Assembly: GCA_014381825.1 (NCBI GenBank)
Contig: JACNKX010000102.1
Coordinates: forward strand, 21,933-85,932
DNA: 64,000 nt
From: Planctomycetota bacterium
GTDB taxonomy: Bacteria > Planctomycetota > Planctomycetia > Pirellulales > Pirellulaceae
Direction: 5' to 3'
A model generated the notes under the pieces. The model saw only the letters and a program-made list of their open reading frames with translations. It made no database searches and had not been told where the DNA came from. Of the stretch, positions 21,225-46,624 are shown one piece after another. Every line of letters starts with the position of its first letter. Positions within the stretch are counted from its first letter, which is position 1. A program made the position numbers and the translations under genes.

Positions 21225-21257
21225 GAGTGGTGTCCTCTAATCGAGATTATCTAACTG

Positions 21258-21319
21258 CGAAAGGCACGAATTACACGAAAGGTAGATGTGATTATCCTTC
21301 GTGTAATTCGTGCCTTTCG
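21258..21319. repeat. Perfect 22-bp inverted repeat with 18-nt spacer; CACGAA-type
   Basis: CGAAAGGCACGAATTACACGAA (21258-21279) and exact reverse complement TTCGTGTAATTCGTGCCTTTCG (21298-21319). Confidence 0.95.
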
Positions 21320-21421
21320 TGGTTGTCTCTTTACGTAGTCGCTCGCAGCGCTCGGTCTCCATCGACCGCTGCCAATAAGAATAGTCCATCAGCGTTCAAC
21401 TTCCCAGAGACGCGGGCCGCA

Positions 21422-34494: not shown

Positions 34495-35925
34495 TTATGC
34501 GAGTAGTTCCGTCACAACATGCCCATGGACATCGGTCAAACGTCGATTGATTCCGTTGTGATAGAACGTCAACGCTTCGTGGTCGATGCCGAGCAGTTGC
34601 AGGATCGTGGCGTGGAAATCGTAGACAGTTACCGGGTTTGCCGCAACTTGATAGCCGACTTCGTCGGATTCTCCGTAGCTGGTGCCCGCGTTGACGCCGG
34701 CTCCGGCCATCCATGTGGTGAAGACGTGGGGATGATGATCGCGTCCGAGGCCTGAGCCCTTTACTTCAGTGAACGGTGTGCGCCCGAACTCGCTGGACCA
34801 AACGACCAGGGTGTCTTCGAGCAGGCCGCTGCGCTTGAGGTCCTTTAGCAGTGCGGCGCAGGGTTGGTCGAGGTGGATGCCTTGGTTATCGTGATTGCGG
34901 CGGAGGTCTTCGTGGGCGTCCCAGTTGATGCGCGGCGATCCGAGAGCGCCTCCATTGTAGATTTGGACGAACCTTACGCCGCGTTCGACCAAGCGGCGTG
35001 CCAGCAAGTAGTTTCGGGCCGACGCACCGATGACGGGATCATCCACGCCGTAGAGTTGTCGCGTTTGCTCGGTCTCGTCTGCAAAGTCGACGGCCTGCGG
35101 GATGCTGCTTTGCATTCGCGCAGCGAGTTCGTACGATCGCACTCGCGCAACTAACGCGTCGTACTCAGGATTGGATTCGGCGAATTGACGGTTGATTTCA
35201 AGCAGCGTCGCCAGACCGGCAGATCGCGACTCGGGCGATACGCTGCTTGGCGTCGCCAAATTCGAGATAGGCGAATCGCCTGATGTACGAAACGCGACTC
35301 CCTGATGTTGCGCCGGTAGGAAGCCTTGGCTCCAGTTGTTCGACGCGCCGTTGGGTAATCCGCGAGGATCAGGCAAGACGACGAACGTGGGAAGCTCCTC
35401 GTTGTCGCTGCCCAAGCCATACGACAGCCAGGCACCTAGGCTTGGAAAGCCGTTCATCGTGAACCCGGTGTTCATCTGAAAGCAGGCGGGAGTGTGTGAC
35501 GAGCTCTTCGTCACCATCGAATGAACGAACGCCATGTCGTCGACGCAGCGCGACAAGTGCGGAAACAACTCGCTCACCCAGCGCGCGCATTCTCCGTGCT
35601 GAGCGAACTTGTAGTAGCTTTTCCGCAAATTCCCAGGACGTCCGAAAAACGTATCGAGCGTTCCCTTTCCGGTCAACGGCTTTCCATCCAACTTCTCCAA
35701 CTCGGGCTTATGATCGAAGGTGTCAACTTGGCTCACTCCACCGGGCGAAAAGATGTGGATGACTCGGCGCGCCTTGGCTGGAAGATGAGGTGGCGTTGTG
35801 GCTGGTTGCTCGGCACGAGCGGTATCGCCATTCTGGAGCATCCAGGCCAACGCCGCACCACCTAAGCCGGTTGCCGCATTGTCGAAGAACAGGCGGCGAG
35901 TGATCGTGTCTTGCTTTGTCATCAT
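34495..35925 (-). CDS. DUF1501 domain-containing protein
   Basis: TAT-like start TRRLFFDNAATGLGGAALAWML; RVIHIFSPGGVSQVDTFDHKPEL; VWSSEFGRTPFTE; 4-bp overlap with upstream DUF1549 gene. Confidence 0.93.
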   Translation of the reverse strand: MMTKQDTITRRLFFDNAATGLGGAALAWMLQNGDTARAEQPATTPPHLPAKARRVIHIFSPGGVSQVDTFDHKPELEKLDGKPLTGKGTLDTFFGRPGNLRKSYYKFAQHGECARWVSELFPHLSRCVDDMAFVHSMVTKSSSHTPACFQMNTGFTMNGFPSLGAWLSYGLGSDNEELPTFVVLPDPRGLPNGASNNWSQGFLPAQHQGVAFRTSGDSPISNLATPSSVSPESRSAGLATLLEINRQFAESNPEYDALVARVRSYELAARMQSSIPQAVDFADETEQTRQLYGVDDPVIGASARNYLLARRLVERGVRFVQIYNGGALGSPRINWDAHEDLRRNHDNQGIHLDQPCAALLKDLKRSGLLEDTLVVWSSEFGRTPFTEVKGSGLGRDHHPHVFTTWMAGAGVNAGTSYGESDEVGYQVAANPVTVYDFHATILQLLGIDHEALTFYHNGINRRLTDVHGHVVTELLA

Positions 35926-38900
35926 TGCACGTACAGAAATTCACTGCTGTTGAGTAATGCCCAACATAATGTCTGGAAATCCGAAGTGGCGATTAGTTCT
36001 TGCGATAATTGCAGCTCACGTTCTTCAGGCGTTCTGCCGAGCGCGATCGACCATGCCAACTGAATTCGGCCCTCCACATCTTGCTCAGCCGAACGGCGAT
36101 CATGCAACGACGATGCCGCGGCTTCGACACGCTGGGCAAGTCGTTCGGCTTGCCGTAGAGCGAACGAATCGTTCATCAACGCTAACGCTTGCAGTGGGGT
36201 CGTCGTCTCGCGACGAGTCGGAGTCATCACCGACGGTGCGGGGCAATCCAACGCGTCGAGCAAGGGATCGCGGCCAGTATTCACGTTCATGCGATAAACC
36301 GTGCGGCGGTTGTACGCCGGTTCGTCACGATCAAACAACTTGTAGAAATAAGTATTAAATCGAGTCACTTCGAATGGCTGGACGCTCGGTCCGTACATCT
36401 GTCGATTCAGTTCGCCGCTGACCGCCAGCATCGCATCTCTTACGGTCTCCGCCTCCAGACGCCGCAGTGGAAAACGCCAAAGGAATCGATTGTCGGAATC
36501 TACGGAATGGGGGTCGGCCGCTTGCTCATCGCCGCTCGCTTGATAGCTCGTCGCGCTGGACTGCATCCGATATATCGCCGAGGTAACGATCAAGCGATGA
36601 ATGTGCTTCAAGCTCCAGTCGTGTTCGACCAACTCGTCAGCGAGCCAATCCAGCAATTCGGGATGCGTTGGCAAACTGCCACTCGCGCCGAAATCGCTCG
36701 GCGTATCAACCAGCCCGCGACCAAAGTGATAATGCCACAGCCGATTCACGATGACACGTGCTGTCAACGGATGGTCGGCGTCGGTCAGCCAATTGGCAAA
36801 CGAGCTGCGGCGTGCGGCGTCAGAAGGATCGTCTCCGCCGACAAGATTCAGTTCCGGACTCTTGATGGCTGACAAGGCAGCAGGCCCGATTGACGGCCCT
36901 CGTTGACGAACATCGCCACGCTCGAAGAGTATGGTAGGCGGTGGCTTTCGACGAACGCCGATGAATGCTTTACGAGTCGACTCTCGCAGCTGGTTCAACT
37001 GTGCCTCGGCTTGAGCAGCGCGCTCCTTCAATCGCGCAACATGCGTCTGCAACTGCCCGAGGAGTTCGTCGCGCTGCTGCTGGTCTTTCAGACCGCTTGT
37101 TAAAGTTGGCTCTTCGATCGAGGATAGCGCCCTGACGTCTGTCGCCGCTAACGCTGCGTGCCAGACAGCAGCAAGATCCATCTGGGCGCCGGGTTGTGGC
37201 CCATTGCGAAAGCTGGGCGCGACGAAGAAGAGCAGATTCTGGACACCGCCAGTTTCTAGCGAGTCGTAAGCAACTTCCTGCTCCGCCGCTTCGCCGATCT
37301 GCCGCCCCGTGTTAGGATCGTGCAAGTAGAGTGTCATTCGACCGTTGCCAGTTTCGGGGAGCGATTCGAAGACTGCCGCGATGTCGTACCATTGGTTAAC
37401 ACTTACTGAGTGTTTGTGGTTCAGCGCCTGCTCTGTCTTCTGTTTACTTCCCAGTGTGACGAACTGCGGATGGGCAGCTTCCTGGTTGTCGCCATCGGCG
37501 ACGAACTCCAGTCCAATCGTATCGCGATGCTCGGAGGGGCTGCTGCCAATTCGAAAGATATCGTCCACACCGTTAAAGGGTTTCGTAAAGCGAACGCGCG
37601 CGAACAGCGTCATCGAACTCTGAGTCCGAGGGAACAACTCCGATCCCGCCAAATTCGGAATGATTGCATAGCCCGCGCCACCGGCTTCGTTGCGGAGCAG
37701 CGTACCCGCTCCCGTATCTGCAATCCGCTGGTCGGAGTTCAACGCGAGAATTGGTTCATCGACCGTTTGATCGACTCGCAAAGTCCACTTGCCAGCCAAG
37801 TTGCTCTGCCCGCCCTTCAAGTCGATCGCCGATTGCTGATCACTCTCATTGGCGTTCGCCGCAAATTGCCACATCGCCACCGCGCGATTTAGCGGTGGCA
37901 AGTTCTTGTCGTCCGACAGCGATTCGATCTGTTCTTCGATCTGCTGCAAAGCTTGTTGCTCTTTGGCGACGCTCGCTTGAAGTTCTGCTTCACGTCGTTC
38001 AAACACACTGCGTTCTTCGTTCGTGAGTACAAGACTTGCAGTGCGAGGATTTCCCTCGGATTGATCGACTCCTTCAAACACTGCCTTCACTGCGTAGTAA
38101 TCAGTCTGAGGAATGGGATCAAACTTGTGGTCATGACAACGGGCGCAGTTGACCGTCAATCCGAGGAAAGTTTGCGAAATCACCGATATCATTTCGTCCA
38201 TCATCACTTCGCGAGCCCGTAGTCGCTCGACTTCACTGGCCGCGACGGCGGCGGCGTGATCCCACGGGCCAGCGACCAAGAAACCTGTCGCCTCGATTCC
38301 GTCATGCGTTACTGGTTCGATAACATCTCCCGCCAATTGCTCACGGACAAACAGACTGTACGGTTTGTCGGCGTTCAGACTGCGAATGACATAATCGCGA
38401 TAAGGCCAAGCGTGTGGCCGTGGTGCATCTTCTTCGAAGCCGTCGCTCTCGCTGAAGCGAACGACGTCGAGCCAGTGCCTCGCCCAGCGTTCTCCGTATG
38501 CAGGCGACGCAATCAGACGGTCAACAGCTGCTTCCCACGCACTCGGCGAATCGTCGGCCAGAAACTCGGCGATGTCACCTTGTGAAGGTGGCAGACCGAT
38601 CAAATCGAAAGTGACTCGACGCAGCCACGTGCGGCGGTCAGTTTCCGCAGCCGACTCGAATCCAAATTCAACATGCTTCGCGGCGATGAAAGCATCGATC
38701 GGATTACGAGTCCAATCGCGACGGGCCATCGGAAGGTCCGGCGACGGAGGGCGGTGTACTGGTCGAAGTGACCACCACTGTGGTTGCTCGATAACGACTT
38801 CTGACGGCCAAGAAGCGCCCTTGGCGATCCAGCGTCGAATCGTTTCGACGTCGGCGTCGGCCAGCGGCGGCGCGCCTTGCGGCATCTCCGCCTTGCCGTC

Positions 38901-39152
38901 CTCGCGAGTGATCAAGTCGAGTAGATAACTCGAATCAGGATCGCCCGCAGTAACAACTTCGCCACTTTCGCCTCCTGCTTTCAAGGCTGCCCGCGACTGG
39001 AGCGAGAACTCACCGCGACGTAGCTTGTCGTTGTGGCAACGGACGCAGTGCGATTTGAATATCGGCGCGACTTGTTGCTCGAAGAGTTCGTCTGCATTTG
39101 CCGACAGCGTGCAAAGGGAGAGAACCAGAACGAGACCGTATGCAATAATCAC
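35922..39152 (-). CDS. PSD1/DUF1549/DUF1553 protein with cytochrome c-like CxxCH and LamG-like insert
   Basis: [22 protein letters not shown], DUF1549 [41 protein letters not shown], DUF1553 [24 protein letters not shown]. Confidence 0.93.
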   Translation of the reverse strand: [1076 protein letters not shown]

Positions 39153-42380: not shown

Positions 42381-44690
42381 ATGAATTCCAAACTATTCGC
42401 CTTCGTATTTTTAATCGGACTTGGCGCTCAGGGTGCGCAGAACGGATTTGCCGGCGTTGACTTTAACCGAGATGTAGTGCCCATCTTGTCTGACAAGTGT
42501 TTTCATTGCCACGGACCCGACAACGAGACGCGCGAAGCAGATCTTCGCCTCGACAAGCAGCAAGATGTGTTCGGCGAACGGGACGGTCGTAGAATCGTTG
42601 TACCGGGAGACAGCGAACAGAGTGCGTTAGTCCGACGTATTCGCTCGCAAGATATTGACGAGCGCATGCCGCCCGCCCATTCGACGCGTCAGCTCTCCTC
42701 TACGGAGATCGACGTACTGACGTCTTGGGTCGATGAAGGCGCGAAGTGGACGAAGCACTGGGCCTTCGAGCCGCCACAACGCAGAGACCTTCCAGCCGTT
42801 CAGGATGCTGCGTGGACGCAGAACGCGATCGATCACTTCGTCTTGAGGCGACTCGAGCAAGAAGAACTGAAGCCATCGCAGCGTGCCGACCGCGAAACCC
42901 TGATTCGCCGTGTGACGCTCGACCTTACCGGACTCCCGCCAACACCTGAGGAGATAGACGCGTTTCTCAAAGATGATTCGCCCGGCAGCTATGAGCGGCT
43001 AGTCGATCGCTTCCTCGCCTCGCCTCGCTACGGCGAACACATGGCACGACCCTGGCTCGACGCCGCACGTTATGCCGACACGGATGGGTATCAAAACGAT
43101 CGCATCCGCTATATGTGGCCGTGGCGAGACTGGGTGATCATGGCAATGAACGAAGGCATGCCATTCGATCAATTTACGATTGAACAACTCGCCGGTGACA
43201 TGCTGCCCGATGCGACTCTGTTTCAACAGATCGCGACCGGCTTTGGACGCAATCATCGCATTAATTCCGAAGGTGGTTCGATTCCCGAGGAATGGGCCGT
43301 CGAGTACGTCGTCGACCGGGTCGATACGTTGGGTACGGTATGGCTTGGTCTGACCCTCGGCTGTGCGCGCTGTCACGATCACAAATACGATCCGATGACG
43401 CAGCGAGACTACTACCAGCTGTTTGCGTTCTTCAACAATGTCCCAGAGTGGGGACTGGGCCCGAACAATGGAAACAGTCCACCCTTCATCGAGCTGCCCA
43501 AGTCGTGGCCACACCTGTCGGCTGTTGAGAATCGGTTAATCGTGCCAGCGCGTTACGAGTTGAATACGAAGCAGGTATCCGTCGTTCGACCCAATTCCGG
43601 TGGTCCCGAAACAGTGATGGTCATGCACGAACTGAAGGAGCCTCGCTCGACCTACTTGTTGCGGCGCGGTCAGTACAGCCAGCCAGACAAGTCGGAAGTG
43701 CTGCGACCTTCGGTGCCAACGAGTCTCGGTGACCGACACGATACTGAGCTCAAAAATAGGCTAGATTTGGCGAAGTGGCTGGTGCATCCGACGAACCCGC
43801 TTACCGCACGCGTTACCGTGAATCGATATTGGCAGATGTTCTTTGGTGCCGGGATCGTTCGAACGAGTGAGAACTTTGGTATCCAAGGCGAAGCTCCGAG
43901 CCATCCTGACTTGCTTGACCGCCTTGCGGTCGAGTTCGTTCAACTCGATTGGGATGTAAAGTCCGTCCACCGATTGATGGTGACCAGTGCGACTTATCAA
44001 CAATCGTCTTCGACAAACAGCAAATTGGTCGCGCGCGATCCAGACAACCGCTTGCTAGCTCGCGGGCCACGAGTACGTTTATCCGCGCATGAAATTCGCG
44101 ATCAGGCATTGGCCATAAGCGGCTTGCTCTCGGATAAAATCGGTGGTTTATCGGTGAAGCCATACATGCCGCCCGGAATTTGGCGAGCCATCTCGAACAA
44201 TAAGTATGCGCAAGACAAAGGCGAAAGTCTCTATCGGCGCAGCCTCTACACTTACTGGCGACGGACGATCCCGCCTCCCACGATGATGACCTTCAACGCC
44301 GCCGAGCGAGAGGTGTGTATCGTCCGCAAGGGCCATACTAACTCCCCGCTGCAGGCCTTGACGTTGATGAACAACGTCACTTTCGTCGAGACGTCGCGGC
44401 TGATGGCCGAGCGAATTCTCTGCGAAGGTGGCGACACGCTTGATGCTCAAGTCAACTTCGGATTTCGACTTGGCATCGGGCGGTTTCCCACGAGCCGCGA
44501 GCTAGATCTTTTACGAGACGCGTATCACGAGTTCTTTTGGAAGTATGAAAACGATCGCGCAGCTGCAGCGAAATTGTTGACGGTTGGGGAATTTCCACGA
44601 GAGAAGCGTCACGACACGATTCAGCTCGCTGCGATGACAATGCTCGCCTCGACGATCATGAACCTCGATGAAGCCGTGACGAAGGAGTAA
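42381..44690 (+). CDS. PSD1/DUF1549/DUF1553 domain-containing protein
   Basis: [88 protein letters not shown]. Confidence 0.94.
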   Translation: [769 protein letters not shown]

Positions 44691-44697
44691 GAGACTA

Positions 44698-45170
44698 GCC
44701 ACAAAAAACACGAAGAATCACAAAAAGTAGAGAAGGGGAGAGATATGGAGTGGGAACATATTAATCAGTTGTGTGATGTTGTTCGTGAGACGAGTTTTGC
44801 GATTCATACTTATCATCGGAATGGACATCTTGAGAAGATTTATGAGAACGCTTTGGCGCATCGACTGCGGAAGGCGGGTTTAGAAGTTGAGCAACAACAT
44901 CCACTGAAAGTTTATGATGAAGACGGCACTATACTCGGTGACTACTTCGCCGATCTTTTTGTTGAAGGTTTGCTTATCGTAGAATTAAAGGCAGCGAAGG
45001 CCGTCTCCGACGACCACGTCGCCCAACTGCTCGGCTACCTGAGATCAGCACGTGTCGAAACTGGACTCTTAATTAACTTCGGAAGCCAAAAGCTCTTCGT
45101 AAAGAAGTATCTCATGAGCATCTAGTCATATCGTTCTCTTATTTTTGTGCCTTCTCGTGCTTTTTGTGGC
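44698..45170. mobile_element. Putative GxxExxY mini-element bounded by ~29-bp imperfect inverted repeats
   Basis: GCCACAAAAAACACGAAGAATCACAAAAA (44698-44726) vs reverse complement of 45142-45170 (GCCACAAAAAGCACGAGAAGGCACAAAAA), 24/29 match; encloses one gene; interrupts a DUF1549-DUF1501 pair. Confidence 0.7.
44745..45125 (+). CDS. GxxExxY protein (PDDEXK-like small nuclease-fold family)
   Basis: HLEKIYENALAHRLRKAGLEVEQQHPLKVYDEDGTILGDYFADLFVEGLLIVELKAAKAVSDDHVAQLLGYLRSARVETGLLINFGSQKL; RBS AAGGGGAG. Confidence 0.92.
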   Translation: MEWEHINQLCDVVRETSFAIHTYHRNGHLEKIYENALAHRLRKAGLEVEQQHPLKVYDEDGTILGDYFADLFVEGLLIVELKAAKAVSDDHVAQLLGYLRSARVETGLLINFGSQKLFVKKYLMSI

Positions 45171-45175
45171 CAACC

Positions 45176-46624
45176 ATGAACAATCTAAACGCAATCAATC
45201 GTCGCCACTTCTTTGGTCGGGGCGCGACCGGTCTTGGCACAGCTGCGTTAGCATCGTTGTTGAACCCTGACCTCTTTGCGGCTCGCGAGCAATCGCGCAA
45301 TGCCATAGGCGGCCTAGAGTCGATGCCACATTTCGCGGCGAAGGCCAAGCGTGTGATCTGGATGTTTCAGTCAGGTGGCCCTTCGCAGTTGGACCTCTTC
45401 GATTACAAGCCGCAACTTCAGGAGCGATTCGGACAGGAGGTACCAACATCGGTGTATCCAGCCGACCGCAAGACGACCATGACCGCTGGACAAACAAGCT
45501 TTCCCACGGCACCAAGTCGGTTGAAGTTCAAGCGGCACGGTCAGTGTGGAACGTATGTTAGCGAGGTTCTGCCAAACATCGCGAAGATCGCTGACGACAT
45601 TTGCGTTGTGAAATCAATGTACACCGAAGCCATCAATCACGATCCGGCCATTACGTTCTATCAAACGGGATCACAGATTCCGGGACGGCCGAGCATCGGT
45701 GCCTGGATGACGTATGGGCTTGGTTCAGAGAATGCGAATTTGCCAGGATTCGTGGCGATGACTTCTCGCGGATCGGCGAAGGCGGGACAGCCGCTGTACG
45801 ATCGACTCTGGGGAAGCGGCTTTTTGCCGGCGAAGTATCAAGGCGTGAAGTTTCGCGGGCAGGGTGATCCGGTGCTCGACATTAATAATCCGCCCGGTGT
45901 CGATTCTGAGACCCGCCGCAAGATGCTGAACGCTCTAGGAAAGCTCAACGAGCTACAGCACACTGAAGCCGGGGACCCAGAGATCCGAACGCGAATCGCT
46001 CAATATGAGCTGGCATTTCGAATGCAGACTTCCGTGCCCGAGTTGCTGGACTTGTCGGACGAACCCGAGCACATCACGAGCATGTACGGAAAGGATGCCA
46101 AGCAGCCCGGTAAGTACGCGTATAACTGCTTAATCGCACGCCGACTCGCCGAGCGTGGTGTTCGGTTCATTCAGTTGTTTCACATGGGATGGGACCAGCA
46201 TGGTAACTTGCCAACTCAGATCCGCGCCCAAGGCCGAGATACCGATCAAGCAAGCGCTGCGCTGGTCAAAGATCTTAAACAGCGAGGGATGTTAGAAGAT
46301 ACGCTCATTGTTTGGGGCGGCGAGTTCGGACGAACCGTCTACTCGCAGGGTGGCCTAACGAACAAAAGCTACGGTCGCGATCATCATCCGAATTGCATGA
46401 GCTATTGGTTGGCGGGTGCTGGCATCAAACCTGGATTGAGCTATGGCGAGACGGACGACTACAGCGTCAATGCCGTTGTCGACCGAGTTCACGTTCACGA
46501 CTTGCAGGCCACGATTCTTCACCAGATGGGCATTGATCACGAACGCCTAACTTATAAGTACCAGGGGCGACACTTCCGGCTGACGGATGTGCATGGCAAA
46601 GTTGTGCGGGATATTTTGGCGTAA
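45176..46624 (+). CDS. DUF1501 domain-containing protein
   Basis: MNNLNAINRRHFFGRGATGLGTAALASLLN; KRVIWMFQSGGPSQLDLFDYKPQL; VWGGEFGRTVYSQGG. Confidence 0.94.
   Translation: MNNLNAINRRHFFGRGATGLGTAALASLLNPDLFAAREQSRNAIGGLESMPHFAAKAKRVIWMFQSGGPSQLDLFDYKPQLQERFGQEVPTSVYPADRKTTMTAGQTSFPTAPSRLKFKRHGQCGTYVSEVLPNIAKIADDICVVKSMYTEAINHDPAITFYQTGSQIPGRPSIGAWMTYGLGSENANLPGFVAMTSRGSAKAGQPLYDRLWGSGFLPAKYQGVKFRGQGDPVLDINNPPGVDSETRRKMLNALGKLNELQHTEAGDPEIRTRIAQYELAFRMQTSVPELLDLSDEPEHITSMYGKDAKQPGKYAYNCLIARRLAERGVRFIQLFHMGWDQHGNLPTQIRAQGRDTDQASAALVKDLKQRGMLEDTLIVWGGEFGRTVYSQGGLTNKSYGRDHHPNCMSYWLAGAGIKPGLSYGETDDYSVNAVVDRVHVHDLQATILHQMGIDHERLTYKYQGRHFRLTDVHGKVVRDILA

Follow-up and report, generated by a model that had tools for sequence, protein, structure and literature searches.

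Introduction

REPINs are non-autonomous, hairpin-forming pairs of inverted repeats that are linked to an encoded enzyme, the RAYT (TnpA-REP) (PMC3116915, PMC8266576). The intervening sequences (IVSs) of 23S rRNA are about 430 nt long, with terminal inverted repeats of about 28 bp and one S23p/four-helix-bundle open reading frame (ORF), and are suspected to be selfish (PMC4990558). Paired tandem octa- and heptanucleotide repeats in Geobacter have been described as regulator-binding sites or RNA elements (PMC2700814, PMC2996986).

The window considered here (the whole stretch of DNA that was analysed, 64,000 nt from a planctomycete of the family Pirellulaceae) contains a 473-bp unit in which a GxxExxY gene is enclosed by inverted tandem arrays. 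Like REPINs, GxxExxY-type units are short inverted hairpin pairs, multicopy and extragenic, mostly without a transposase, and the palindromic units are linked to an enzyme encoded separately or adjacently. Unlike REPINs, which are built of REP palindromes with GTAG, their arms are tandem arrays of 8-10 nt, and the partner is a PDDEXK nuclease, with its gene inside some units, rather than an HUH transposase. Their size and one-ORF plan recall the IVSs, and the same layout surrounds TIGR02436 genes found elsewhere in these genomes; however, the ORF encodes a PDDEXK and not a four-helix-bundle protein, the repeat period is different, and the sites are intergenic between protein genes (as is that of the 473-bp unit, which does not lie in 23S rRNA). 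As with MITEs, gene-less inverted-repeat derivatives are scattered in intergenic DNA, but there is no target-site duplication at a fixed offset (95 elements), and, without a systematic search, no parental DDE-transposase transposon was seen; the gene-bearing version carries GxxExxY, and none with a transposase was seen, again without a systematic search. The Geobacter repeats likewise form inverted pairs of about four tandem 7-8-nt units, variably spaced, intergenic and multicopy, but the accessible parts of those reports state no link to GxxExxY (PMC2700814, PMC2996986). As in free-standing homing endonucleases, a small nuclease gene is the sole gene, and unrelated nuclease folds (PDDEXK, GIY-YIG) occupy one junction in Flavobacterium, but a target site and allelic homing have not been shown for GxxExxY units.

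Very many bacterial genomes have GxxExxY proteins annotated, without an assigned function. In the open-access literature searched they are named, in one case incidentally, and neither an account of their mobility nor a description of such units was found there, although an earlier description elsewhere or in family database notes is possible.

Results

A 473-bp unit between two operon genes

The first-pass annotation of the window had proposed that a GxxExxY gene, bounded by imperfect 29-nt inverted repeats, was inserted without a transposase into the gap that separates a DUF1549/1553 gene from its DUF1501 partner (Table 1). The gene call, its position and the lack of a transposase in the unit were all confirmed; the genome has four Y1_Tnp genes, none of them within the unit. 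The inverted repeats are present and imperfect, but their length had been underestimated: each arm is 37 nt, and the two are 81% complementary. None of 1,219 equally spaced control positions in the same window reached the arm score of this unit. Excision of the unit in silico leaves 12 bp between the end of the DUF1549/1553 gene and the ATG of DUF1501, in agreement with the ~12 bp proposed, and the 4-bp overlap claimed for the paralogous pair in the window (34495-35925 and 35922-39152) is likewise correct. An alternative TTG start of DUF1501 at 45164 falls within the right arm.

Table 1. Features of the 473-bp unit and its surroundings (positions within the window).
Feature	Position	Strand	Evidence
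Whole inserted unit, 473 bp	44698..45170	.	Not present in any of 25 related DUF1549-DUF1501 pairs
Left arm, three tandem units (GC CACAAAAAA CACGAAGAAT CACAAAAAG)	44698..44734	+	Score 42 vs control maximum 28
GxxExxY protein, 126 aa, PDDEXK fold (predicted)	44745..45125	+	TIGR04256, PF13366, alignments, AF2 model, Foldseek
Right arm, inverted copy of left arm	45134..45170	-	Sequence comparison
Upstream host gene, PSCyt1/DUF1549/DUF1553	42381..44690	+	Profile match
Downstream host gene, DUF1501	45176..46624	+	Profile match
Gene-less palindromic unit of the same kind	21253..21324	.	Genome-wide pattern; 32-nt arms 88% complementary, 8-nt loop

The GxxExxY protein

The protein matched TIGR04256 with 111.6 bits (curated cut-off 35, E = 2.7e-32) and PF13366 (PDDEXK_3) with 102.8 bits (curated cut-off 22, E = 2e-29). 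In the window's protein E30, D70, E80-x-K82 and Q94-x3-Y98 are all intact; across 38 aligned sequences E30, D70, E80, K82 and Q94 are invariant and Y98 nearly so. The AF2 model had a pLDDT of 95, and the nearest solved folds in Foldseek were Cas4 SSO0001 (the best PDB match, E = 9.6e-4), LHK-Exo, lambda exonuclease and MGME1. By modelled fold and motif the protein is predicted to be a minimal nuclease core of the RecB/lambda-exonuclease/Cas4 type, its nuclease activity being inferred. Seven plasmid records matched the protein and no phage record did, on which ground a phage origin was rejected; PHROGs gave no match. A known defence system was rejected for want of a PADLOC match.

The insertion is the derived state

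The nearest DUF1501 homologues were taken from 59 genomes of the family, and 29 relatives were read. A DUF1549 gene lies directly upstream of DUF1501 in 25 of them, mostly with a gap of -9 to about 120 bp, and in none of these 25 pairs does GxxExxY stand between the two. The gene is not syntenically fixed at this junction, as it would have been had the first-pass reading been wrong in the way its author foresaw, and because all 25 related pairs are without the unit's gene, the insertion in the window is derived. In one relative (L094) this gap is instead occupied by a palindromic unit of ~160 bp that has no gene and whose arms are CACGAAANA. Insertion of units is well supported; actual movement was not observed, only differences between species.

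Inverted arrays flank GxxExxY genes in many phyla

A lack of such repeats at other GxxExxY genes would equally have counted against the first-pass reading, and the reverse was found. With a flank-versus-flank score of 30 or more taken as a match, full flanks matched as inverted repeats at 30/30 GxxExxY loci of the order, against 25% of mismatched flank pairs and 13% in direct orientation. Inverted arms were present at 59 of 78 GxxExxY loci from many phyla, compared with 5.6% of mismatched pairs, and at 0/26 DUF1501 control loci.

Each arm consists of about three tandem units of 8-10 nt with the consensus CRCnRAK, often preceded by TTMAC; arms are alike within one element and unlike between elements. 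The consensus occurs in both arms at 28 of the 30 GxxExxY loci and at none of 31 TIGR02436 loci. The TIGR02436 four-helix-bundle genes (L033-L064) have inverted tandem arrays on either side, with a unit that is particular to each element and a strict 7-nt period (lag-7 identity 0.70). Given this difference in consensus and period, the repeat grammar is family-specific and tied to the protein family.

Some loci depart from the common plan. At four (L136, L163, L169, L141) both arms flanking the gene are palindromic units in their own right, which places the gene between two gene-less units. One GxxExxY gene of genome G087 (L351) has GGGAGAT-type and not CRCnRAK arms, and at L365 and L368 tandem ACAGGAT-type arrays are nested within CRCnRAK units. 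Between pyrH-like and frr-like genes (assigned by eye), GxxExxY units were found in opposite orientations among genomes (L012, L029, L032).

Most units carry no gene

Gene-less palindromic units of about 55-175 bp are present in up to hundreds of copies per genome. A search with a strict three-unit pattern gave as many as 230 matches in a genome, against near-zero counts for its reversed control. In G087 the majority of matches are convergent pairs, 56-175 bp end to end, and a few units of 340-435 bp contain other ORFs. The window's genome has 13 CACnAA-type arrays, namely the left arm of the 473-bp unit and 12 others; most of those read belong to gene-less palindromes, two of which (L377, L378) share the arm flavour of the 473-bp unit.

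The first-pass annotation had seen in the locus a minimal mobile unit whose only gene is a nuclease-fold protein. Mobility is supported by presence and absence at orthologous junctions and by the gene-less derivatives, but it is the palindromic array pair that appears to be the basic unit. Since most copies are without the gene, the nuclease gene would be one cargo of a larger population.

Arrays co-occur with GxxExxY genes

Over 197 genomes, the median number of arrays was 15.5 with GxxExxY and 0 without it (Fisher odds ratio 27). The link persisted under within-family permutation (P < 2e-4), also when only arrays beyond the GxxExxY genes' own arms, i.e. gene-less ones, were counted (P = 4e-4). 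It is weak in the window's own family, f1 (correlation 0.16 with the strict pattern), and seven genomes have 5 or more arrays yet no GxxExxY. TIGR02436 counts are correlated with array numbers as well (0.62 overall, 0.26-0.34 within strata), and part of the signal may therefore reflect a general tolerance of such elements.

Turnover at shared junctions

A junction between hemW-like and cyclase-like genes (names from reading the sequence) was tracked through 61 species of Flavobacterium, with states assigned by a script using simple patterns and spot-read. It was empty (<32 bp) in 15 species, held a GxxExxY unit in 14 and gene-less palindromes of two kinds in 22; the remainder had a GIY-YIG unit (5) or other contents (5). 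A tree of the flanks implies at least 28 state changes, with many forks weak. The GIY-YIG units (L241, L242, L243, L255, L256) are about 350-420 bp long, occur in scattered lineages, and have hairpin-like ends (TTTCAGCATCT ... AGATGCTGAAAC) unlike those of GxxExxY units.

Within genus g60, G059, G082 and G096 were examined at six junctions that hold a unit in G087. Apart from one short related palindrome, G096, which is without GxxExxY, has no CRCnRAK unit at these junctions. G059 and G082 have palindromic units or array remains at most of them, of other flavours and with mostly unrelated interiors. At one site (L342, L362, L363) the interiors of about 430-500 bp in G087, G059 and G082 have no overall similarity, and the ORFs of 130-145 aa are different in each of the three sister species. 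Because shared sites hold units of other flavours and interiors, the sites have been reused or refilled; from these sequences, re-insertion, conversion from other units and concerted change in place could not be distinguished. Such differences of flavour within one genus are explained neither by simple vertical inheritance nor by simple transposition.

Across 95 elements no offset was enriched for a target-site duplication. No pair of gene-bearing copies within a genome exceeded 78% identity over 150 nt, even where there were 17 copies, which argues against a recent burst of gene-bearing units.

Discussion

The architecture of these units, its conservation across phyla, their presence or absence at orthologous junctions and their co-occurrence with GxxExxY at the genome level were observed. 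The interpretation that we lean towards, without strong confidence, is that they are non-autonomous elements like REPINs, and that a GxxExxY nuclease of the Cas4/lambda-exonuclease kind, which rides in some of them, disperses or maintains them in trans. The 473-bp unit would belong to a large population of such miniature palindromes, most copies having only a short loop and a minority the GxxExxY gene in the loop. The protein would act in trans on the arrays, whether these are duplex or folded into the hairpin or cruciform that they can form; by our inference, units would be copied into intergenic sites as a consequence of the cut, and the gene-bearing version, in a homing-like manner, into gene-less or cut units. 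Autonomous movement, or action of the nuclease in trans, is thus an inference, and the route from cut to new copy is its least certain part. In the window, the unit would have landed between two co-oriented operon genes, breaking neither.

GxxExxY could instead be a passenger in palindromic units that are moved, as REPINs are, by a Y1/HUH (RAYT or IS200-like) transposase. Y1_Tnp is present in 146 of the 197 genomes, including the window's own, and HUH chemistry fits the lack of a target-site duplication. However, arrays do not follow Y1_Tnp once GxxExxY is accounted for: the partial rank correlation with arrays is 0.61 for GxxExxY given Y1_Tnp and 0.09 for Y1_Tnp given GxxExxY, by which Y1/RAYT was rejected as the driver. 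Genomes with Y1_Tnp but without GxxExxY have a median of 0 arrays, whereas the five with GxxExxY but without Y1_Tnp have a median of 20, and reading the arms by eye, without a formal scan, brought no GTAG tag to notice. We consider this passenger reading quite improbable. The REPIN criterion of inverted repeat pairs in many extragenic copies is met (pairs of 56-175 bp in G087, at most 230 strict arrays per genome), but the RAYT criterion of association with HUH/Y1 is not, arrays being abundant without Y1_Tnp; the units work most like REPIN/RAYT but fail its defining enzyme test. It is also very doubtful that the units are cassettes exchanged at fixed landing sites by host recombination between dispersed arms, with GxxExxY among the captured ORFs. 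The different ORFs at the L342 site and the mutually unrelated contents of the Flavobacterium junction would suit such exchange, but the passenger ORFs of G087, G059 and G082 have no Pfam match and lengths of only marginal significance (P 0-0.1), and GxxExxY recurs in such arms across phyla too often for a random passenger.

Formation in place, with slippage making the tandem units, template switching (quasipalindrome correction) copying one arm onto the other, and GxxExxY carried along or settling nearby, seems unlikely. At shared sites in g60 all units in both arms differ in flavour between species, and at one of them the loop terminator is partly kept (CTTCCTTTTTTCTT in G087 and G059) while the arms differ, as such a process could produce. 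Yet the CRCnRAK grammar is common to many phyla, with a period set by the protein family (8-10 or 7 nt), clean empty sites exist at the Flavobacterium junction, and in a vertically inherited Flavobacterium set the arms within an element are no more alike than orthologous arms (43 vs 50 and 52). That set also showed no pairing-driven covariation of the arms, which argues against a role of the arms as RNA, in which a long stem would terminate transcripts or be processed by RNase III in an IVS-like manner, with GxxExxY as mRNA-borne cargo. The resemblance of some loops to terminators, and the IVS plan (about 430 nt, one ORF, a terminal stem of 28 bp; PMC4990558), speak for this RNA role, but the unit had no Rfam match in the sources searched and units lie in all orientations relative to genes (by reading), and we give it very little credence.

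If the link between arrays and the nuclease is causal, this would be a REPIN-like system in which a PDDEXK nuclease takes the role of the HUH transposase, and it would account for intergenic palindromes of a widespread class. The tie to a defined repeat grammar gives the GxxExxY family a likely substrate and a testable role, and the parallel TIGR02436 case would also be relevant to the long-standing problem of the movement of 23S rRNA intervening sequences. More tentatively, and with rather less than even odds, the units may belong to a class of mobile DNA, spread across phyla, that has a single enzyme, a minimal PDDEXK nuclease of the RecB/Cas4 kind acting on inverted 8-10-nt arrays, with parallel four-helix-bundle (7-nt) and GIY-YIG classes, and with no recognised transposase, recombinase or reverse transcriptase of its own.

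Gene-less units at the start of secreted-protein genes

At three loci on one contig (C81) of the window's own genome (L373, L374, L375), a gene-less unit is placed in frame with the downstream secreted-protein gene, at its start. The right arm of the unit reads SCISCLSW or SCNSCLSW and forms the core of a signal-peptide-like segment (e.g. MLLFSCISCLSWLSILLVATSLSAADA), so that here a signal peptide may have evolved from a repeat arm.
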